The notes under the pieces were generated by a model, which ran no database searches, was not told the DNA's origin, and was given only the letters and a program-made list of their open reading frames with translations. Made by a program: the position numbers and the translations under genes. A stretch of 26,686 bases of DNA from a virus. Shown here piece by piece: positions 339 through 13,343 of this stretch (position 1 is its first letter; each line of letters starts with the position of its first letter). The DNA lies in IMG/VR virus record IMGVR_UViG_3300000117_000184, positions 1,034 through 27,719 of that record. The stretch is one strand, 5' to 3'.

Positions 339-1901
339 ATGGAATACAATCAGCCTAGCGAGATTGTCAAAGATTTAAACTTTGGTGACTTAGCTAAGAA
401 CAGAATATCAGCTGGAGTAGAAAAACTAGCAGGAGCTGTTAAATCTACTTTAGGTGCATCGGGTAAATGTGTTATTTATGAAGATGCTAGAGGTAAACCA
501 GTGATCACAAAAGACGGAGTAACCGTAGCGGAATCGGTTGTCTTGTTTGATCCTGTGGAGAACATAGGAGCTACTCTTATTAAAGAAGCTTCTAGGAATA
601 CAGTTAGGGAGGCAGGTGACGGTACTACTACAGCTATCGTACTTGCCGAGTCCCTATTAAATGAAGTAAACAAAAATTCTGCATATACTACAAGACAAGT
701 AAAATCAGGTATAAACTCTGCTTTAAACAAAGTAAATAAATACCTTGATAAAAATAGCATAGAAGTTTCTGGTAAAATGTTAGACAGTGTTGCTGCTATA
801 TCATGTAACAATGATCAAGAATTAGGTAGCACTATTGCTGAAGCATACAATGTTGTAGGTAAAAACGGTGTTGTATTAATGGAAAGCTCAGAAACAAATG
901 AAACTTACGTACAAACTGTTGATGGTGTACAAATAGACTGCGGTTTAAAGTCACCACATTTTGTAACAGACAAAGATAGAGAGACTTCAATACTAGATAA
1001 TCCATTAGTATTAACAGTTTCATCAGAGATATCAAGCGTAAGAAAAATACAAACTATACTAGAGTATGTTATTAAAAACAAAAGAAGTTTATTAATAGTA
1101 GCTCCAGTAGCGCAGCAAGTTCAATCAGCTTTAATGATGAACAAAGTTAAAGGTAATATTAGTGTTAATATTATTGACACACCTGGCTTTGGTCCTACTA
1201 AAGATGATGCTATAGAAGATTTAGCAATAATTACTGGTGCTAAAGTTATTAGTGAAGAACTTGGTGATGATTTAGATTTAATACAGCCTGATTGTTTAGG
1301 TGAAGTATTAAAATCAGTAACAGATAATAAAAACACTGTACTTACTATAAAAGAAGTTAATAGTGATATTAGTGAAAGAATATCTGATGTTGAAAAGAAA
1401 ATAGATAAAGAAAAAAACGAATTTATAAAAAGAAAATTACAAGATAGACTTAGCGTACTATCTGGTTCTGTCGGTATTGTAAAAGTAGGTGCGAACTCAA
1501 AAGTTGAGTTAAAAGAAAAAAGAGATCGTGTTGAAGATGCAATATATGCTGTAAAAGCAGCATTAAAAGAAGGTATTATTTCTGGTGGTGGCATAGCTTT
1601 ATTAAATGCATCGCAAAACATAAAACCTTCTAACGATTGTGAAAATATATTATTACAAGCAATACGCTCACCTTATAACACTATACTAGAAAATGCAGGT
1701 ATAGAAGACTCAGTTGAACCTTTAAAAAAAGGTTGGGGCTTTAATGTTGTGTCTGGTGAACATGTTAATATGGTAAAAGGTGGGATTATAGATCCTGTAT
1801 TAGTTACAAAGACGGCTTTAAAAAATGCAGTAAGTGTAGTATCAACTATTATATCTGCAGATTGTGTTATATCTAATATGAGGACTAATGAAAGCAATTA
1901 A
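339..1901 (+). CDS. groEL: GroEL-type chaperonin (Cpn60)
   Basis: Group I chaperonin, the ATP-driven folding cage that works with GroES in the cytoplasm. At 520 residues it is a little shorter than bacterial GroEL (about 548). Equatorial ATP-site elements are present: TLG at 37-39, TKDG at 57-60 (D59 matching E. coli D52), GDGTTTA at 93-99 (D94 matching D87), VEDA with D400 (matching D398), GGG at 416-418 and the late GIIDP with D485 (matching D495). The apical domain (about 195-380) is complete. Oddities: the proline after TLG in most GroELs is alanine (A40), and the C-terminal GGM tail is missing, the protein ending NMRTNESN. It overlaps groES by 14 bases. Phage-style leader and neighbours argue that it belongs to the phage. 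It probably folds virion proteins, which is inference. Confidence 0.96.
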   Translation: MEYNQPSEIVKDLNFGDLAKNRISAGVEKLAGAVKSTLGASGKCVIYEDARGKPVITKDGVTVAESVVLFDPVENIGATLIKEASRNTVREAGDGTTTAIVLAESLLNEVNKNSAYTTRQVKSGINSALNKVNKYLDKNSIEVSGKMLDSVAAISCNNDQELGSTIAEAYNVVGKNGVVLMESSETNETYVQTVDGVQIDCGLKSPHFVTDKDRETSILDNPLVLTVSSEISSVRKIQTILEYVIKNKRSLLIVAPVAQQVQSALMMNKVKGNISVNIIDTPGFGPTKDDAIEDLAIITGAKVISEELGDDLDLIQPDCLGEVLKSVTDNKNTVLTIKEVNSDISERISDVEKKIDKEKNEFIKRKLQDRLSVLSGSVGIVKVGANSKVELKEKRDRVEDAIYAVKAALKEGIISGGGIALLNASQNIKPSNDCENILLQAIRSPYNTILENAGIEDSVEPLKKGWGFNVVSGEHVNMVKGGIIDPVLVTKTALKNAVSVVSTIISADCVISNMRTNESN

Positions 1902-2145
1902 TTACTATTTAATAGTAAGTGATATAAAAGAAGAGCAAAAAAAGATTGCTGGACTTATTTTCACAGAGAAGACAGACCTGGATAACCGTTACATTAGAGC
2001 TAAGGTTATCAGCTGCGGCAGTAAGGTCGAGGGTGTCAATGATAAAGACATAGTGTACTATGACAAGCATGCAGGACATGGTATTAACTATGGAGACACC
2101 CTTTATAAAATTATAAGAGCACAAGACGTAGTTCTTGTCGAATAA
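1888..2145 (+). CDS. groES: GroES-type co-chaperonin (Cpn10)
   Basis: Lid of the chaperonin cage. The protein has 85 residues against about 97 in bacteria. It begins MKAINYYLIVSDIKEEQKK. The mobile loop is recognisable with the hydrophobic tripeptide LIF (within AGLIFTEKTD) in place of the usual IVL, followed by the barrel strand AKVISCGSK, the roof-loop region DIVYYDKHAGHG and the closing strand QDVVLVE. Its ATG lies 14 bases before the groEL stop in another frame, so translation is likely coupled. The order groEL then groES is the reverse of the usual bacterial operon. The first part has more G/C-ending codons than groEL. The family call is strong; that it caps this phage GroEL is inferred from adjacency. 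Confidence 0.9.
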   Translation: MKAINYYLIVSDIKEEQKKIAGLIFTEKTDLDNRYIRAKVISCGSKVEGVNDKDIVYYDKHAGHGINYGDTLYKIIRAQDVVLVE

Positions 2146-3049: not shown

Positions 3050-3364
3050 ATGGCACGTGTAATTAAAAAACGTTTAGGTAAAAATGTTTTAGGACAAGCA
3101 AACAAAGGTAACGAAATACTTATTAATAAATCTATAGATAAAAATAGCACTAAAGGTAAAAGTGTAATAGCCCATGAAAAAGTTCACTTAGAACAAATGA
3201 AAAGAGGTGATCTTGATTATGATGATAAAAATTTTTATTGGAAAGGCAAAACATATCCAAGAAATAAAATAGATGAAACTGATAAAAATTTACCTTGGGA
3301 AAAAGAGGCATATAGAGCTTCTAGACGTATCATGAATGGTAAAAGAAGAAGAAGAAAAAAATAA
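3050..3364 (+). CDS. Small HExxH metallopeptidase-like protein (104 aa)
   Basis: It carries VIAHEKVHLEQM with HEKVH at residues 42-46, the HExxH zinc-binding and catalytic signature of zincin peptidases. A likely third ligand is a glutamate in PWEKEAY (82-88), about 40 residues downstream, as in gluzincin-like folds. The rest is charged, with strand-like FYWKGKTYPR between the two motifs and a tail of Arg/Lys (KRRRRKK). There is no signal peptide. It could be a virion maturation protease, a lysis-associated enzyme acting near the downstream holin, or an inactive structural zincin. The motif is seen directly; peptidase activity is inferred. It is closely spaced between the winged-helix-like gene and a basic protein. 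Confidence 0.8.
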   Translation: MARVIKKRLGKNVLGQANKGNEILINKSIDKNSTKGKSVIAHEKVHLEQMKRGDLDYDDKNFYWKGKTYPRNKIDETDKNLPWEKEAYRASRRIMNGKRRRRKK

Positions 3365-5247: not shown

Positions 5248-6966
5248 ATGGGTGTACCTACTAGCGGTAGTTTTAGTATGTTTGGCAACAGTGATAACAC
5301 TACAATACAAGGTGCTATAACTGAGGGTGGTGGATCTGTAGCTAGCACTGATAATTTAAATGATTTAATAGCCGCATCTAATGTTTCTTTATTTGATACA
5401 ACTTACTCTGGAGATTTAAGTGGTAGTTTAAGTAATGTAACTAACGCAAATCAATATAGAGGTTATCCTACAGCAACAACATCAACAGCCTTTGCATTTA
5501 CTTACACATTCCCTGCAGGTTTTACTTATGCAGCAGTTATAAATCTTGATGGAACTTCTAGTGAATATAACGCTACTTGGACTTGGGGAGATGGTGCTAC
5601 AACAAGTATAACTGATAACAGTCAACTTACAAGAACTATAGCAGATAATAGTGGAGGTGGATCAACAAGCACATATAACGGTAATGTAGTAGCATCAACA
5701 ACTGAAACATTTCCTGAATTTACTATAAACAATTTTAACATAACTGATGTATCTGCTTGGGGTAATATAAAGTGGAGAAAATTAAAACTTAAAGGTGCAA
5801 GTACAAGTTTAAATATAAGTGCTAGTGATACTCCAGATCTTTCAAGATGCACAAGTTTATTTCAATGCTTCATGGGGTTAGGAACTTTTAATGATGACAA
5901 TGTTACTAGTTGGGATGTGAGTAATGTGACAAACATGCAAAGTATGTTTGATGGTTGTGGATCTTTTAATCAATCATGTAATTCTTGGGATGTCAGTAAT
6001 GTTACAGATATGTCGGTGATGTTTGGTGCCTGCGCAGCATATAATCAAAATCTTAATTCTTGGAATACTGGAAGTGTTATAAATATGGTAGGCATGTTCC
6101 AAAATGCTACTAATTTTAATGGTAACATAACTTCTTGGAATACAAGTAGTGTAACTAACATGCAAAGTATGTTTAATAACGCTAGTTCATTTAACCAAAA
6201 CATTGGTAGTTGGAATACAAGTAGTGTAACTACCATGCAAAGTATGTTTAATGGAGCTAGTTCATTTAATCAAGACATTGGTAGTTGGTCTACAAATAAT
6301 GTTACTAATATGCTAGCTTTATTTGCATCTGCTAGTTCTTTTAATCAAAATTTAAATTCTTGGAACGTTGGTAATGTCACGGATATGGGTAGTATGTTTT
6401 TAAATGCTACTGCTTTTAATGGTAATATTACTAGTTGGGATACAAGTAGTGTAACAAAAATGTCAGGGATGTTTTCAGGTGCTACTTCTTTTAATCAAGA
6501 TATTGGAGGTTGGGATACAGACAGTGTTACAACTATGCTGCAAATGTTTTTTAGAGCAACTTCCTTTAATCAAAGTTTAAACACTTGGGATGTAAGTAAT
6601 GTTACTAATATGAATGGTATGTTCCAAGATGCCACTTCTTTTAATAACGGTGGTTTAAATTGGGATACTGGAAGTGTTACAAACATGAGTAATATGTTTA
6701 ACGGTGCTACTTCTTTTAATCAATCAGTTATTTCTAACTGGGATATAGCAGATGTAACAGATATGACAAATATGTTTCTTAATACTGCTTTATCTGATGC
6801 TAATTATAAAACAATTATTATAGCTTGGGCAGCGCAATCAACACAAAACAATGTAACAGCACACTTTGGTAGTGCTCAGTTAACAGACTCTGCAGGTCAA
6901 ACTGCTAGAACAACATTAGTTGGTAGAGGATGGACAATAACAGATGGTGATGGTACACACACTTAA
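5248..6966 (+). CDS. DUF285/BspA-type repeat adhesin, likely tail-associated
   Basis: 572 residues. The N-terminus ([19 protein letters not shown]) resembles phage appendage base regions. A PKD-like stretch around residues 85-125 contains [12 protein letters not shown]. Residues about 215-510 hold about twelve repeats of 24-25 residues with the pattern [10 protein letters not shown]-x-x-MF-x-x-A-x-SFNQ, the DUF285 (BspA-like) surface repeat known from mycoplasma and Bacteroidota adhesins. The C-terminal 55 residues ([15 protein letters not shown]... GWTITDGDG) form a typical cap for this family. There is no signal peptide, which fits a virion protein rather than a secreted one. The likely role is binding a host surface protein or glycan. 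The context, after the S74 fiber, supports this; the receptor is unknown. Confidence 0.88.
5890..6780 (+). repeat. About twelve DUF285 repeats at DNA level (about 72-75 bp each)
   Basis: Units are anchored by the TGG codon of (S/N/G)W(D/N/S), the first at 5911 (residue 222) and the last at 6739 (residue 498). Neighbouring units around 6133-6195 and 6208-6270 are nearly identical in DNA (TGGAATACAAGTAGTGTAAC then CATGCAAAGTATGTTTAA), suggesting recent duplication, while the first and last units are more diverged. It encodes a solenoid, not a CRISPR or iteron array. Confidence 0.85.
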
Positions 6967-7026: not shown

Positions 7027-7281
7027 ATGAGTGAAGATAAAAAAATTAAAAAAGATCAACTAGAAGCAATACATAATCTAGTTAAACAAATAAACAATGG
7101 TCAATCACAAATTGGTCAGCTTGAAACACAAAAGCACGTTTTGCTTCATCAAATAGGTGAAGTGCAAAAAGATCTTAGAGAGTTTCAATTAAAATTAGAA
7201 GAAGAATACGGTAAAGTAAACGTTAATATTGTAGACGGTACCATAACACCTATTGAAGATGAGCAACAAGCTAATACGTAA
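7027..7281 (+). CDS. Small coiled-coil protein (84 aa)
   Basis: It begins MSEDKKIKKDQLEAIHNLV. Heptad-like spacing of Ile, Leu and Val runs from about residue 8 to 65 (QLEAIHNLVKQI, QIGQLETQKHVLLHQIGEV, LREFQLKLEEE), predicting a coiled coil. A short strand-like end (VNVNIVDGTITPIEDE) follows. There are no membrane or enzyme motifs. It could be a small assembly or oligomerisation factor. It overlaps the next gene by 23 bases. The family is not recognised with certainty. Confidence 0.75.
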   Translation: MSEDKKIKKDQLEAIHNLVKQINNGQSQIGQLETQKHVLLHQIGEVQKDLREFQLKLEEEYGKVNVNIVDGTITPIEDEQQANT

Positions 7282-7483
7282 AATTAGCATTGGTAAAGAT
7301 TATAAAAACGAATCAATGCATTATTCCGTAGGTCAAGAGGTTTATGGAGGACATAAAATTTCTAATATAATTGAAGAAGATGAAGGATATGACATCTATA
7401 TTCAAAAAGATAAAGATGTTATTATTTGGAAAAACTTCAATAAAAATATGGCCATATCTGTAGAATATAATCTAGAATATTAA
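7259..7483 (+). CDS. Small hypothetical beta-rich protein (74 aa)
   Basis: I place the start at ATG 7259 (MSNKLIRKISIGKDYKNESM) rather than the TTG six bases upstream, because ATG is used at every other start here. The overlap with the preceding gene is 23 bases. The sequence suggests a small beta fold: MHYSVGQEVYGG, HKISNIIEED, GYDIYIQ, DVIIWKNFN, ISVEYNLEY. It has no catalytic motif. It shares one base with the next start (TAATG), so it is translationally linked to the double-GroES candidate. The role is unknown. Confidence 0.72.
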   Translation: MSNKLIRKISIGKDYKNESMHYSVGQEVYGGHKISNIIEEDEGYDIYIQKDKDVIIWKNFNKNMAISVEYNLEY

Positions 7484-8088
7484 TGCGAAGTATATATGAT
7501 TTTATTATATCACCTAAAACATCAAGATATAATAATGTTAAAAAAGTAGGTGATAAAAAACTTATACTTAATACAGAAATATATAATCATCAATATGTTA
7601 GTAGGCAAGCTATAGTTAAATCAATACCTATAGTAATACCTACTAAAATACAAGTAGGTGATGAAATAATAGTTCACCACAATGTATTTAGAAGATGGCA
7701 TAATGTAAAAGCTGAAGAGAAAAATAGTAGAAGTTATATAGATGAAAACACTTATTGTGTAAAAGAAGATCAAATATTTTCTTATAAAAGAAATAATAAG
7801 TGGGTAGCTACAGATGGTTTTTGTTTTGTAAAGCCAATAAAATCTACAGATAAATATTCTTCTAATCAAGAAAAAGAGTGCGTAGGTATTTTAAAACAAA
7901 GTAACAAAGCACTTTTAGAATTTGGTTTAAAAGAAGGTGACTTAGTAGGATTTACACCTGTTAGCACTTATGAATTTATTATTGACGGTGAAAGACTATA
8001 TAGAGTTTTAACTAGTCAAATTACAATTAAATATGAATACAAAGGAGACGAAGAAGAATATAATCCAAGCTGGGCAAGTAGCAGTTGA
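7483..8088 (+). CDS. Candidate tandem (double) GroES-like co-chaperonin-fold protein (201 aa)
   Basis: The sequence reads as two GroES-like barrels. First half (about 1-105): IYDFIISPK as the opening strand, a loop with the hydrophobic tripeptide in KKLILNTE at the mobile-loop position, then QAIVKS, VGDEIIVHH (GroES VGDIVIFND), an extended roof loop, and YCVKEDQIFSY (GroES closing strand ESDILAI). Second half (about 113-188): FCFVKPI, CVGILKQS, KEGDLVGFTP, then FIIDGERLYRVLTSQITIKYE, which lines up with GroES from VGDIVIF to DILAIVE; its mobile loop is missing. Tandem Cpn10 proteins are known from chloroplasts (Cpn20). The fold is my alignment by eye and function is unproven. It starts on the previous stop (TAATG) and overlaps the next gene by 56 bases. 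Confidence 0.6.
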   Translation: MRSIYDFIISPKTSRYNNVKKVGDKKLILNTEIYNHQYVSRQAIVKSIPIVIPTKIQVGDEIIVHHNVFRRWHNVKAEEKNSRSYIDENTYCVKEDQIFSYKRNNKWVATDGFCFVKPIKSTDKYSSNQEKECVGILKQSNKALLEFGLKEGDLVGFTPVSTYEFIIDGERLYRVLTSQITIKYEYKGDEEEYNPSWASSS

Positions 8089-8311
8089 GGAATTAATTAA
8101 AGTAGCTAAAGAAGCTATTGTTGATTCAGATGATGATATATCAGCAGACAGATTAAAAAATGCTGCAGCTACAAAAAAATTAGCTATCTTTGATGCGTTT
8201 GAAATACTTAAAAGGATAGAAGAAGAAGAAAACATAATAGAAAACAAAATACCAGTTGATATAAGTAAGGATGTATCTTTTGGTGGTTTTGCAGAAAAAA
8301 GATCTAAATAA
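8033..8311 (+). CDS. Small acidic helical protein, candidate small terminase subunit (92 aa)
   Basis: The ATG at 8033 overlaps the preceding gene by 56 bases. It begins MNTKETKKNIIQAGQVAVEE and is almost wholly helical, with DDDISADRLKNAAATKKLAI in the centre and LKRIEEEENIIENK after it. The position, one small gene ahead of TerL, and the helical oligomerising character fit a small terminase or packaging accessory, but there is no clear DNA-binding helix-turn-helix. It could instead be an assembly protein. The conserved-looking central block suggests strong constraint. The coding call is firmer than the function. Confidence 0.6.
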   Translation: MNTKETKKNIIQAGQVAVEELIKVAKEAIVDSDDDISADRLKNAAATKKLAIFDAFEILKRIEEEENIIENKIPVDISKDVSFGGFAEKRSK

Positions 8312-8710: not shown

Positions 8711-10933
8711 ATGTATAAACAAACCTTATATAAGGTTATAACTCCAATTAAATTAAATACAATAACAAGACTTAACAAGTCTAAAAAATGGGAGTATGGT
8801 TATAACAAAGAACATGATGTTGTTGTAATTAGTAAAACAGGACAAATTGGTGAAGTATATGAGATACAAAATCTTAAAATAGCTTTACCAAAACAAACCA
8901 ATATTGTTAGGTTTAAAAGCAATAAATGGGAGTATACTGAGTGTCCAAAAGAACTTAGTAAAATAAAAACAATATTTGATTGGAAAGAGTATCCTAATAG
9001 TTTTAAAGAAAAACATATAGAATATATAGAAAATGAGTTCAAAATTAGAGAAGAAGGTTTATGGTACTATAATAACAATAATCCTACTTACATTACTGGC
9101 ACTCATTACATGTACTTGCAATGGAGTAAAATTGACGTCGGCAAACCAGATTATCGTGAAGCCAATAGATTATTCTACATCTTTTGGGAAGCCTGTAAAG
9201 CCGACTTTCGATCTTACGGGATGTGTTATCTTAAGAACAGACGATCCGGCTTCTCATTCATGGCGTCTGGTGAAGTTGTCAACCTTGCGACCATATCCAG
9301 TGATGCGAGGTACGGAATATTGTCCAAGTCCGGTCCCGATGCGAAGAAAATGTTCACCGACAAAGTGGTGCCTATATCCGTCAACTATCCTTTCTTCTTC
9401 AAACCAATACAAGACGGCATGGATAGACCAAAAACAGAACTCGCTTTTAGAGTTCCAGCATCAAAACTTACAAGACGGAGTATTACGAGCACCGACAGGC
9501 CAGAGGATTTACAGGGCTTGGACACCACAATCGACTGGAAAAATACAGGAGATAACTCCTACGATGGAGAAAAAATCAAGTTATTGGTACATGATGAATC
9601 CGGAAAGTGGGAAAAGCCAAACAACATCCTCAACAACTGGAGAGTCACAAAAACAACCTTAAGATTAGGTAGTAGAGTGGTAGGTAAATGCATGATGGGT
9701 AGCACATCAAACTCACTAGACAAAGGTGGAGGAAATTTTAAAAAACTTTATAGAGATTCTGATGTAACTAAAAGAAATAAAAATGGGCAAACTAATTCTG
9801 GTCTTTACAGTCTTTTTATTCCTATGGAATGGAATTACGAAGGGTTTATTGATGAGTACGGTCAACCAGTATTTGACCAACCTGATAAAGAACTTAAAGG
9901 ACCTTATGGGGATTACATAGATGCAGGTATATTAGATCATTGGCAAAATGAAGTTGATGGTTTAAAAAACGATCCTGATGCTTTAAATGAATTTTATAGA
10001 CAGTTTCCAAGAACAGAAGAGCACGCATTTAGAGATGAAACTAAAAACAGTATATTTAACTTAGCTAAAATATACGAGCAAATAGATTATAATGAAGGTG
10101 TTAATAATAATACAGCTATAACTACAGGTAATTTTCAGTGGGTAAATGGTATTAAAGATACAAAAGTTATATTTTATCCAGATCCAAACGGTAGATTTAA
10201 TATTAGCTGGGTACCACCAAGTCATTTACAAAATAAAGTAATACAAACTAACAACGGTAAAAAACCGGGTAATGAACATATAGGTGCTTTTGGATGTGAT
10301 AGTTATGATATATCTGGTACTGTTGACGGTCAAGGTTCTAAAGGAGCTTTACACGGATTAACAAAGTTTTCTATGGAAGACGCTCCGCCTAACAGTTTCT
10401 TTTTAGAATATTTAGCTAGACCTCAAACTGCAGAAATATTTTTTGAAGATGTATTAATGGCATTGGTTTTTTATGGTATGCCTATACTTGCAGAAAATAA
10501 TAAACCTAGACTTTTATACTATTTAAGGCGTAGAGGTTATAGAGGTTATTCTATGAATAGACCAGATAAAGTTTGGAATAATTTATCTAGTACAGAAAAA
10601 GAAATAGGTGGTATACCAAACTCTAGTGAAGATATAAAACAAGCTCACGCAGCGGCAATTGAAATGTATATACAAGAACACGTTGGTTTAAAAAATGAAG
10701 GTGATTATGGTAATATGTATTTTAATAAAACATTAAATGATTGGTCAAAGTTTGATATAAATAATAGAACTAAATTTGATGCATCTATAAGTAGTGGTTT
10801 AGCTGTAATGGCTTGTAATAGAAATTTATATGCACCAAACGTGCAAAAAGAAAAAAGAAAAATAAATATTGGATTTGCTAGATATGAAAATCAAGGCATG
10901 TCATCTAAAATAATAACAGAACAATATGGCTAA
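8711..10933 (+). CDS. terL: Terminase large subunit (TerL), DNA packaging ATPase/nuclease
   Basis: 740 residues, long for TerL because of an N-terminal extension of about 100 residues. The ATPase half shows a deviant Walker A, LKNRRSGFS at 174-182, and Walker B KLLVHDE with D295-E296, then the coupling segment CMMGSTSN around residue 327. The nuclease half has FGCDSYDISG with D530 as the first RNase H-type acidic residue, and FFEDVLMALVFYG downstream. It pumps DNA through the portal and cuts concatemers. It overlaps the portal start by eight bases. About 9123-9660, covering the ATPase core, is markedly GC-richer than the rest of the gene, without any break in the protein. The sequence style matches TerL of crAss-like and related marine phages by recollection. 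Confidence 0.95.
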   Translation: MYKQTLYKVITPIKLNTITRLNKSKKWEYGYNKEHDVVVISKTGQIGEVYEIQNLKIALPKQTNIVRFKSNKWEYTECPKELSKIKTIFDWKEYPNSFKEKHIEYIENEFKIREEGLWYYNNNNPTYITGTHYMYLQWSKIDVGKPDYREANRLFYIFWEACKADFRSYGMCYLKNRRSGFSFMASGEVVNLATISSDARYGILSKSGPDAKKMFTDKVVPISVNYPFFFKPIQDGMDRPKTELAFRVPASKLTRRSITSTDRPEDLQGLDTTIDWKNTGDNSYDGEKIKLLVHDESGKWEKPNNILNNWRVTKTTLRLGSRVVGKCMMGSTSNSLDKGGGNFKKLYRDSDVTKRNKNGQTNSGLYSLFIPMEWNYEGFIDEYGQPVFDQPDKELKGPYGDYIDAGILDHWQNEVDGLKNDPDALNEFYRQFPRTEEHAFRDETKNSIFNLAKIYEQIDYNEGVNNNTAITTGNFQWVNGIKDTKVIFYPDPNGRFNISWVPPSHLQNKVIQTNNGKKPGNEHIGAFGCDSYDISGTVDGQGSKGALHGLTKFSMEDAPPNSFFLEYLARPQTAEIFFEDVLMALVFYGMPILAENNKPRLLYYLRRRGYRGYSMNRPDKVWNNLSSTEKEIGGIPNSSEDIKQAHAAAIEMYIQEHVGLKNEGDYGNMYFNKTLNDWSKFDINNRTKFDASISSGLAVMACNRNLYAPNVQKEKRKINIGFARYENQGMSSKIITEQYG
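9123..9660. other. GC-rich, differently coded segment inside terL with an open overlapping frame
   Basis: By hand count 9181-9660 is about 45% G+C (214 of 480), while 9001-9060 is 20% (12 of 60) and 9721-9780 is 25%. In the TerL frame third positions shift to C/G (GTC, GGC, TCC, GCG, AAC, TTC). A +1-frame reading from ATG 9033 stays open for 209 codons and stops at 9660-9662, just where composition returns to normal. Recombination from a GC-richer relative or overprinting are both possible. Confidence 0.75.
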
Positions 10934-13343
10934 TTCTACAAAAAATTATTTTCCCAGCCAAGTAGTTAGTGATCTTGAAAAAATGAGTTCAGAATATGGA
11001 CTTAAAGTTGCTAAAGCTATAGAAAGCGAGTGGTTTTATAGTGATAATCAAACTACAAGATATAAAAGTAACTACAATAGTTATCGTAGGCTTAGGCTTT
11101 ATGCTAGAGGAGAACAGCCTGTACAAAAATATAAAGATGAATTATCAATTAACGGTGATTTATCTTATCTTAATTTAGACTGGAAACCAGTACCAATAAT
11201 ACCAAAGTTTGTAGATATAGTTGTAAACGGTATATCTGAAAGAACATATGATATAAAAGCTTATACTCAAGATCCTTTTGGGATTGAACAAAGAACTAAG
11301 TATATGGAAGATATACTTATGGATATGAGAACTAAAGAGTTAGATGCTTTTGTTTTAGATAGTTTTGGTATAAATATATCTAATGTAGATAAAAATGAAT
11401 TACCAGAAACAAAAGAAGAACTTGAGTTGCACATGCAACTTACATATAAACAAGCTATTGAAATAGCAGAAGAACAAGCAATAAATACTATTTTAGAAAC
11501 AAACAAATATGATTTAATAAGAAAAAGAGTTAATTATGATTTAACTGTTTTAGGTATTGGTTGCGTTAAAAATAGTTTTACAGAGTCTGAAGGGCTTAAA
11601 GTAGATTATGTTGATCCAGTAGATTTAGTATATTCTTATACTGATTCACCTTACTTTGAAGATATATATTATGTAGGTGAATTAAAGACAGTAACAATTA
11701 ACGAGTTAAAAAAAGAGTTTCCAGATTTAACAAACGATGATTTAAAAGAAATACAAAACTATTCAAGTACAGTAAAAAATTATGGTAGTAGATACCATTA
11801 TGATCAAAGAGATAACAACCAAATAGATGTTTTATATTTTAATTATAAAACATACATGAATGAGGTTTATAAAGTAAAAACAACAGGTACTGGTGGTAGT
11901 AAAGTTATAGTTAAAGATGATACATTTAATCCTCCAGTAGAAATTTTAGATGAAAATTTTGAAAAAGTTTCTAGATCACTAGAAGTTTTATATGAAGGTG
12001 TTATGACTTTAGGTAGTAGCAAGCTTTTAAAATGGGAGATGGCTACTAATATGATGCGACCTAAGAGCGACAATACTAAAGTTAAAATGAATTACAGTAT
12101 TGTTGCACCTCGTATGTACAATGGTAGAGTTGAATCTTTAGTTAGCAGAATAACTGGTTTTGCTGATATGATACAGCTAACTCATTTAAAGCTACAACAA
12201 GTAATGTCTAGGATGATACCAGATGGCGTTTATTTAGATGCTGATGGCATAGCAGAAGTTGATCTTGGTAATGGAACAAACTATAATCCACAAGAAGCAC
12301 TTAATATGTTTTTTCAAACTGGTAGTATTATAGGTAGATCACTTACATCAGATGGTGATATTAATAGAGGTAAAGTACCTATACAAGAAATAGCTAGTGG
12401 TAATGGTGGTGCTAAAATGCAAAGCTTAATAGCAAATTACAATTATTACTTGCAAATGATAAGAGATGTTACTGGTTTAAATGAAGCAAGAGACGGTAGC
12501 ACACCATCAAAAGATGCTTTAGTTGGAGTTCAAAAACTTGCAGCAGCAAATTCTAATACAGCAACTAGACATATATTACAGTCAGGTTTATTTTTAACTT
12601 CAGAACTTGCAGAGTGTATTTCACTTAGAATATCTGATATAATAGAATATGCACCATCAAGAGATGCATTTATACAAAGTATAGGCGTTCACAATGTAGC
12701 AACATTAGAAGAGATGTCTAATTTACATATACATGATTTTGGTATATTTATACAATTATCACCTGATGAAGAAGAAAAACAAATACTTGAAAATAACATA
12801 CAGGCAGCTGTAGCTCAAAAAGGTATAGATATTGAAGATGCTATTGATTTAAGAGAAATAAAAAATATAAAACTTGCAAATCAATTACTTAAGATAAGAA
12901 GAAAAAAGAAACAACAAAGAGATCAACAAGTTGCTCAAGAAAACATACAGGCTCAAGCTCAAGCAAATGCTCAAGCACAACAAGTTGCAGCACAAGCTGA
13001 AGTAGAAAAACAACAAGCATTAGTACAAGTTAATGGTGAATTAGAAAAGCTTAAAGGTCAAATAGAACAACAAAAAATGCAACAAGAAATTGCTGCTAAA
13101 AAAGAATTAATGCAGCTAGAGTTTCAAATGAATATGCAATTAAAACAAATGGAAGTTGAAGCTCAAAAGAGTAAAGACACAAATAAAGAAGATAGAAAAG
13201 ATAATAGAACAAAAATACAGGCAACTCAACAGTCTGAGTTAATTGATCAAAGAAAAAATCAAACATCACCTAAAAACTTTGAATCAGCAGGTAATGATAT
13301 ATTAGGTGGTAATTTTAACTTAGGTGCTTTTGATCCTAGATAA
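10926..13343 (+). CDS. Portal protein
   Basis: 805 residues, a size typical of crAss-like portals. The body (about 1-640) is mixed helix and strand, with blocks such as RLYARGEQPVQKYK and WKPVPIIPKFVDIVVNGISE near the N-terminus, YDLTVLGIGCVKNSF around 205, and IQEIASGNGGAKMQSLIANY and RDVTGLNEARDGS in the crown-forming C-terminal half. Residues about 655-770 are a long Gln/Ala/Lys-rich coiled coil (RRKKKQQRDQQVAQENIQAQ), and the end is GGNFNLGAFDPR. It forms the dodecameric DNA channel at one capsid vertex and docks TerL during packaging. It begins within the last codons of terL (eight-base overlap). The identification rests on size, position and family likeness. Confidence 0.9.
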   Translation: MANSTKNYFPSQVVSDLEKMSSEYGLKVAKAIESEWFYSDNQTTRYKSNYNSYRRLRLYARGEQPVQKYKDELSINGDLSYLNLDWKPVPIIPKFVDIVVNGISERTYDIKAYTQDPFGIEQRTKYMEDILMDMRTKELDAFVLDSFGINISNVDKNELPETKEELELHMQLTYKQAIEIAEEQAINTILETNKYDLIRKRVNYDLTVLGIGCVKNSFTESEGLKVDYVDPVDLVYSYTDSPYFEDIYYVGELKTVTINELKKEFPDLTNDDLKEIQNYSSTVKNYGSRYHYDQRDNNQIDVLYFNYKTYMNEVYKVKTTGTGGSKVIVKDDTFNPPVEILDENFEKVSRSLEVLYEGVMTLGSSKLLKWEMATNMMRPKSDNTKVKMNYSIVAPRMYNGRVESLVSRITGFADMIQLTHLKLQQVMSRMIPDGVYLDADGIAEVDLGNGTNYNPQEALNMFFQTGSIIGRSLTSDGDINRGKVPIQEIASGNGGAKMQSLIANYNYYLQMIRDVTGLNEARDGSTPSKDALVGVQKLAAANSNTATRHILQSGLFLTSELAECISLRISDIIEYAPSRDAFIQSIGVHNVATLEEMSNLHIHDFGIFIQLSPDEEEKQILENNIQAAVAQKGIDIEDAIDLREIKNIKLANQLLKIRRKKKQQRDQQVAQENIQAQAQANAQAQQVAAQAEVEKQQALVQVNGELEKLKGQIEQQKMQQEIAAKKELMQLEFQMNMQLKQMEVEAQKSKDTNKEDRKDNRTKIQATQQSELIDQRKNQTSPKNFESAGNDILGGNFNLGAFDPR

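Follow-up and report, generated by a model that had tools for sequence, protein, structure and literature searches.

A tandem GroES-like protein with a predicted two-barrel fold, encoded just before the large terminase gene in Bacteroidota phages and accompanied by a single GroES

The locus raises the question of whether the 201-aa product of the gene at 7483..8088 carries two GroES-like barrels in one chain, and what such a protein would do in a phage that also encodes a GroEL and a single GroES. The window, i.e., the whole 26,686-nt stretch of DNA analysed, is most of a 27,719-base IMG/VR viral record, and the groEL, single and double GroES, terminase and portal genes, as well as the small genes on either side of the double GroES, are on its plus strand. 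The phage GroEL (520 aa, 339..1901; Pfam Cpn60, 6.4e-52; phrog_5725, 1.1e-131) is followed by the single GroES (85 aa, 1888..2145; phrog_3188), which passed the Pfam Cpn10 cut-off of 21.1 bits with 25.4 bits and is short at the roof-loop position by eye. An earlier note on this DNA had placed the double GroES-like gene beside this pair, but the pair is located about 5.3 kb upstream. The gene belongs to the late module, where the order is tail-fibre and repeat proteins, a 74-aa gene, the double GroES, a 92-aa gene, a 129-aa gene, the terminase large subunit (TerL, 8711..10933; phrog_6681, 1.4e-172) and the portal protein (10926..13343; phrog_6547, 6.7e-148). Three other reading frames in the window were recorded in passing. 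A short ORF with KKGPKMGH repeats (156-311) lies immediately before groEL, a 104-aa protein at 3050-3364 (phrog_16532, function unknown) contains an AHEKVHLEQ motif that is presumably metallopeptidase-like, and a 572-aa protein at 5248-6966 (phrog_17273, function unknown) is built of approximately 25-residue repeats and is taken by us to be a DUF285/BspA-like receptor-binding candidate.

The double GroES starts with ATG at 7483, overlapping the stop codon of the small upstream gene (74 aa, 7259..7483, from ATG 7259; the mechanical ORF starts from TTG 7253). This small gene generated no PHROG match at E up to 0.1, and its product is possibly a working partner of the double GroES. Half 1 (residues 1-104, 7483..7794) contains a loop with an LIL motif at the GroES mobile-loop position (residues 12-41, 7516..7605), and a stretch that by eye is about ten residues longer than in GroES and bears the signature HHNxFRR. 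The mobile-loop position of half 2 (residues 105-184, 7795..8034) corresponds to residues 119-134 and is shortened. The strings previously quoted as GroES-like (IYDFIISP, LIL, VGDEIIVHH and KEDQIFSY in half 1, and FCFVKPI, KEGDLVGF, IIDGERLY and SQITIKYE in half 2) are all present in the translation. The C-terminal tail (residues 185-201, 8035..8085) is read in two frames, with the double GroES overlapping the next gene (92 aa, 8033..8311) by 56 nt (8033-8088). Conservation of the tail is 0.87 in the family, and the tail is short or missing in the relatives from MW202828, elemo, Panino and phi38:1; MW202828, one relative without the overlap, is also without the tail. As the tail also encodes the start of the next gene, its conservation is possibly explained by the second reading frame alone.

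The window protein matched PHROG 13932, "co-chaperonin GroES", with an E value of 5.2e-19 (residues 1-180 against positions 1-195 of the 200-position profile), and the single GroES of the window also matched positions 112-198 of this profile (E 6.5e-4). Judged from the first of these matches, the double GroES is a member of an already known family and not a new gene. The protein missed the Pfam Cpn10 (PF00166) cut-off (13.0 bits vs 21.1 bits, E 0.11), generated zero matches in NCBIfam, and retrieved no co-chaperonin in PDB sequence searches with the protein itself and two family profiles. PDB sequence matches to a TGF-beta receptor (E 1.6) and an acyltransferase (E 0.3-0.4) were set aside as chance, and a match to the "tail fiber" phrog_972 (E 2e-4) was discarded as covering only 100 residues of a 1246-position profile without structural support. 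A Pfam scan of 26 family members found Cpn10 in three, with a best E value of 0.068. The second halves of phi18:3 gp096 (32.6 bits) and phi38:1 gp089 (28.2 bits) passed the Pfam Cpn10 cut-off, and a Cpn10 Pfam match was absent from the second halves of the Panino, MW202828, elemo and L186 homologues; this Pfam evidence covers the second half only and was not counted as proof for half 1. The phi18:3 homologue matched both the tandem HMM (2.7e-11) and the Cpn10 HMM (4.6e-12). Besides an ordinary GroES, many Bacteroidota genomes (G019-G078) contain a further frame, usually about 120-270 aa long, that matches Cpn10 more weakly.

The two halves were compared separately in hhalign, using a family alignment of 161 double GroES sequences (identical ones removed), with a Cpn10 profile built from 91 sequences (E. 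coli, Bacteroidota and phage-type single GroES). Both scored 34.8, half 1 with 85.9% probability (P 5.3e-6) over residues 1-63 only, and half 2 with 89.3% (P 2.1e-6) over 70 columns. The highest scores among 100 column-shuffled versions of each half were 17.5 for half 1 and 20.1 for half 2, and the reversed halves scored 12.3 and 14.5, respectively. Each half thus scores above its 100 shuffled controls, in agreement with the proposal that both are related to GroES. The halves did not match each other (1.5% probability), on which ground a recent internal duplication was rejected. Half 1 prefers the phage single-GroES profile (30.6 vs 20.4 with the bacterial one), while half 2 prefers the bacterial GroES profile (32.5 vs 20.5 with the phage one). 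These opposite preferences therefore point to an old duplication or the joining of two lineages.

An AlphaFold2 model of the window protein (94 sequences; pLDDT 79.4, pTM 0.72) contained two barrels and was weak at residues 11-40 (pLDDT 56-68), the mobile-loop position of half 1. In a Foldseek search against PDB, the best match was chain R of 7ekq (E 3.0e-4), followed by chain Q and then by GroES/Cpn10 structures, with T4 gp31 (1g31) ranking 33rd. Chain R of 7ekq is named Cpn20 co-chaperonin subunit (Chlamydomonas Cpn20, a tandem co-chaperonin), and VIA-align superposed the model on it with Z 10.2 and 3.8 A over 157 residues, spanning residues 1-185 of the model and both barrels. The L186 protein, which is 52% identical to that of the window, was modelled from a separate alignment of 35 sequences (pLDDT 84.1) and again matched 7ekq_R best (Z 9.7, 4.2 A over 158 residues). 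Thus Cpn20, with which the protein had previously been compared from its sequence, was the top PDB structural match for both models.

The two halves are not equally well supported in these models. Half 2 of the window model aligned with single GroES/Cpn10 chains with Z 7.8-8.6 and 2.2-2.8 A over 75-79 residues, its similarity to T4 gp31 (1g31, 2cgt) gave Z 6.5-7.7 across the models, and its GroES-type barrel is clear in both. Residues 1-104 aligned with GroES 4pko_O with Z 7.7 and 4.4 A over 82 residues. For the second model, the listed matches covering half 1 alone were dehydrogenase chains with Z 4.6 or less, in a listing that gives one best match per entry and does not separate out half 1 against GroES. 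Half 1 is the weaker case because of these dehydrogenase-only matches and because its profile alignment is confined to residues 1-63; it lies within the Cpn20 match in both models, and is the less regular of the two predicted barrels. Among viral predicted structures (BFVD), the top named match was the cpn10 of Cellulophaga phage phi18:3 (TM 0.73). A 129-aa uncharacterised protein of phi14:2 (S0A2F3) in the same database showed a weak structural match to the double GroES model (prob 0.92), and is possibly, from its predicted structure, a single barrel in a further phage group. Taken together, the profiles and the two AlphaFold models bear out the suggestion of two GroES-like barrels in one chain, and the outcome named beforehand as fatal to it (no Cpn10 profile match, or another fold) did not come about. 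The models argue strongly that the protein consists of two GroES-type barrels fused head to tail.

The mobile-loop positions differ between the halves in the manner that the earlier note had read from the letters, with an LIL-bearing loop in half 1 and a shortened loop in half 2. The fixed columns that flank the half 1 loop are separated by 29-30 residues in 161 of 162 sequences, and those flanking the half 2 loop by 15-18 residues in 160 of 162 (16 residues in 156); mean conservation, computed on the 161-sequence alignment with its many close relatives, is 0.79 for the former loop and 0.45 for the latter. The exceptions in half 2 are phi38:1 and phi18:3, with loops of 25-26 residues and hydrophobic centres. 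As the half 2 loop is long both in phi38:1, which has a GroEL, and in phi18:3, which has none, its shortening is particular to a lineage and does not follow the presence of GroEL. Two loops, as in Cpn20, may have been present in the ancestral double protein, with the second lost later in the lineage of the window. The Pachyviridae double GroES at L310:41458-42060 has long loops in both halves and no accompanying phage GroEL, and would be a good bench model of the case in which host GroEL is used.

Relatives of the double GroES are numerous in viral contigs: 480 of 496 candidate stretches were confirmed, and a second search retrieved at least 594 among the 600 matches listed. Terminase was found within 700 nt downstream in 157 of 159 tandem-anchored loci, the other two being without downstream DNA. 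A homologue of the small upstream gene was found in 156 of these loci, with the match ending within 10 nt in 151, and the other three are without upstream DNA; the homologue is also present in elemo, MW202828 and Panino. When loci were anchored on terminase, 70 of 80 among the matches listed had the double GroES shortly upstream of the large terminase (three of the 80 were already in the double-GroES-anchored set), and the remaining 10 have less than 700 nt of upstream DNA. GroEL is visible in 47 and single GroES in 51 of the 159 tandem loci, most of which are short fragments. Fifteen loci in genome assemblies are on metagenome-bin contigs, of which nine are labelled Bacteroidota, five archaeal and one Maricaulis, labels to be read with the ease of misbinning phage contigs in mind. 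In annotated phages, 77 records matched the window protein directly in tblastn, and eight further records, representing four Pachyviridae phages with two records each, were reached from phi18:3. Flavobacterium, Cellulophaga and Maribacter phages include relatives whose existing annotation is GroES or cpn10. The double GroES is thus a steady neighbour of TerL in a large group of Bacteroidota phages.

To establish what accompanies the double GroES, Cpn60 and Cpn10 were sought across the full length of eight annotated genomes, of which seven are titled complete and one, elemoF 6-3D, partial. Double and single GroES were both present in all eight, and Cpn60 in four (elemoF 6-3D, phi38:1, MW202828 and Panino). 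In the complete genomes of the Cellulophaga phages phi18:3, phi13:2, phi19:3 and phi46:3, which had been reached through a structure match, the whole-genome search found no Cpn60, and for phi18:3 an HMM search at E up to 10 also found no GroEL. Therefore, the double GroES is not tied to a phage GroEL, and our early impression that the two always occur together was overturned by these four phages; being close kin, with double GroES proteins 99-100% identical, they amount to hardly more than a single case. The survey of homologues proposed in the earlier note thus shows that phages with the double protein and without GroEL exist, and its description of a full alternative folding machine fits phages such as the present one but not these four Cellulophaga genomes. 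The constant pair is single plus double GroES, with the phage GroEL optional, and this is the main addition to the first reading.

The 77 directly matching annotated records all appear to have a GroEL, as BAL314 accounts for 68 in the host tallies of both the double-GroES and the GroEL lists (matched by tally, not row by row), and the rest are seven Cellulophaga records, Panino and MW202828. Among uncultured viral records, GroEL was found in 23 of all 54 searched and in 12 of 12 of those of at least 50 kb, a limit chosen after inspection of the data; single GroES was present in all eight of these 12 that were searched for Cpn10. Six loci with more than 6 kb of upstream DNA and no GroEL were not accepted as true absences, the records being fragments, and two of the six have GroEL elsewhere in the record. 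In the portion of text available for PMC5332604, GroEL is given for 36 of 78 environmental genomes of the group holding phi38:1 and the IAS virus. GroEL and GroES are noted for Panino in the excerpt of PMC11590407, and chaperonins are not mentioned in the searched text of the Baltic Flavobacterium phage paper (PMC7077304).

In 41 phage GroELs, D52, D87, D398 and D495 were invariant (41/41), whereas L234 is replaced by Q in 38, L259 by K or Q in 38 and V264 by M in 38; 39 have a gap at the E434 position, and R452 is variable. We take the four aspartates to be catalytic, L234, L259 and V264 to belong to the lid/substrate groove, and E434 to be an inter-ring residue. From these alignments, the phage GroEL is likely an active ATPase with a lid specificity of its own, perhaps with weak ring-ring contact, and as its apical groove is changed it may bind its lids differently. 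The window GroEL (339-1901) is without the GGM tail, and the phage protein may be single-ring or differently coupled. According to the available part of PMC13288928, mass spectrometry identified the GroEL of phi38:1 both in infected cells and in samples of free virions.

A co-chaperonin role of the double GroES is likely. The reading that we favour, with reasonable though limited confidence, is a Cpn20-like lid subunit that would mix with the phage single GroES in a seven-barrel ring and cap the phage or host GroEL for the folding of virion proteins. The half 1 loop would bind the apical groove of the chaperonin, that of the phage GroEL if present and otherwise that of the host, and half 2 in the lineage of the window would mainly fill a place in the ring. 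We infer the mixed composition from the loops, as one loop per two barrels gives few contacts: a seven-barrel lid would have four loops with three double subunits and one single, five with two and three, and six with one and five. One loop per double subunit would therefore explain the accompanying single GroES. The available text of PMC5780408 describes a comparable arrangement in plastids, hetero-oligomers of Cpn10 and Cpn20 with seven GroES domains. Made with the late genes, the lid would help virion proteins to fold, in the way that T4 gp31 serves gp23; help of this kind is probable, and from the late-module position a role in capsid-protein folding is plausible. Notes of "experimental MS/MS proteomics" are attached to 12 proteins of phi18:3, and neither the double (gp096) nor the single GroES (gp080) is among them, an absence that is weak evidence for a low-copy protein; together with the late-gene position, it favours an assembly aid over a structural part. 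A broader version, in which the mixed lid evolved independently of plastids with its loop number tuned by loss of the second loop, and in which what is conserved is the pair of lid proteins, to which a phage GroEL may or may not be added, is put forward more tentatively, as a possibility somewhat less probable than its negation.

Other compositions of the lid have to be weighed against the mixed ring. Three or four double subunits could form a six- or eight-barrel ring that caps GroEL alone, a capacity that Cpn20 has in vitro, leaving the single GroES as a separate lid for other clients. The two genes are apart in the genome, and Cpn20 homo-oligomers and concatemers of six to eight domains work with the seven-fold GroEL in the accessible part of PMC5780408; such a lid would, however, have only three or four loops, at or under the minimum of four given in the portion of PMC4242682 available, and single and double GroES occur together in all eight annotated genomes. 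We regard this arrangement as unlikely. A ring of seven double subunits, with the half 1 barrels on the chaperonin and the half 2 barrels stacked above as a taller cage for a large client, would account for the short half 2 loop, as expected of a tier making no contact. Each of the two AlphaFold models fits Cpn20 with its two barrels simultaneously, and phi18:3 and phi38:1 keep a long half 2 loop, which makes a two-tier lid highly improbable.

The position of the gene, far from groEL and groES and adjoining terminase, would also fit a packaging or structural role. The protein might thus retain a GroES fold but no longer serve a chaperonin, acting in head assembly or DNA packaging. The steady place before TerL (157/159 tandem-anchored loci, and 70/80 terminase-anchored ones among the matches listed), the occurrence without GroEL and the family-specific HHNxFRR stretch in half 1 are consistent with this, but the half 1 loop is well conserved (0.79), in phi18:3 the protein is missing from the 12 virion proteins with an MS/MS annotation, and a single GroES is present in all eight annotated genomes searched; we consider such a change of function distinctly doubtful. 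That the double protein caps or blocks another host ring machine, such as ClpP, was considered since 7ekq, the best structural match, is by title a chloroplast ClpP complex carrying co-chaperonins. The list of matches contains no tandem co-chaperonin chains other than 7ekq_R and 7ekq_Q. The match is therefore uninformative about ClpP, and we give this idea almost no credence.

If the mixed single/double lid is correct, a Cpn20-type double lid would exist outside plastids, in widespread marine phages and also in small cultured systems (Cellulophaga phi18:3 and phi38:1, Flavobacterium elemo). These natural proteins with one loop per two barrels could then be used to test how an even number of lid domains serves a chaperonin of seven-fold symmetry and what number of mobile loops a lid requires, and they would provide a case of lid proteins kept whether or not the phage encodes a GroEL.

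The family itself, its annotation as GroES and its place among the Pervagoviridae were already known. Relatives in PHROG 13932 (phi38:1 gp089, the elemo phages and Panino) occupy the same place before TerL and are named GroES or cpn10 in RefSeq or GenBank, and chaperonin cpn10 is listed as a Pervagoviridae core gene in the part of PMC8776804 available. The PHROG 13932 annotations and the portions of related text available do not mention two barrels, the pairing with single GroES or the occurrence without GroEL, and the open-licence literature contained no account of a two-barrel phage co-chaperonin or of such a pairing, which subscription papers may hold. The fixed place before terminase, the pairing with single GroES independent of phage GroEL and the unequal loops of the halves are what the present analysis adds.

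Among known systems, T4 gp31 (1g31, 2cgt) is likewise a phage-encoded GroES fold. It is a single barrel that replaces the host GroES alone and works with the host GroEL, whereas the window protein has two barrels and the window phage a GroEL of its own. Closer to the window protein is Pachyviridae phi18:3 gp096, "co-chaperonin GroES", a double GroES of 200 aa with one gene between it and TerL, differing in the long loop in both halves and in the genome having no phage GroEL. Cpn20 of the chloroplast and apicoplast (7ekq chains R and Q) shares the two head-to-tail Cpn10 domains in one chain, the coexistence with a single Cpn10, as double GroES coexists with single GroES, and, on the predicted models, the placement of the barrels as ring neighbours. 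Identity in the structural alignments is 9-15%, and the phage-encoded protein differs in its extended half 1 stretch and shortened half 2 loop, whereas Cpn20 has a usable mobile loop in both domains. Because the lineage of the window has a short half 2 loop of low conservation, we describe the phage protein as Cpn20-like and not as a Cpn20.
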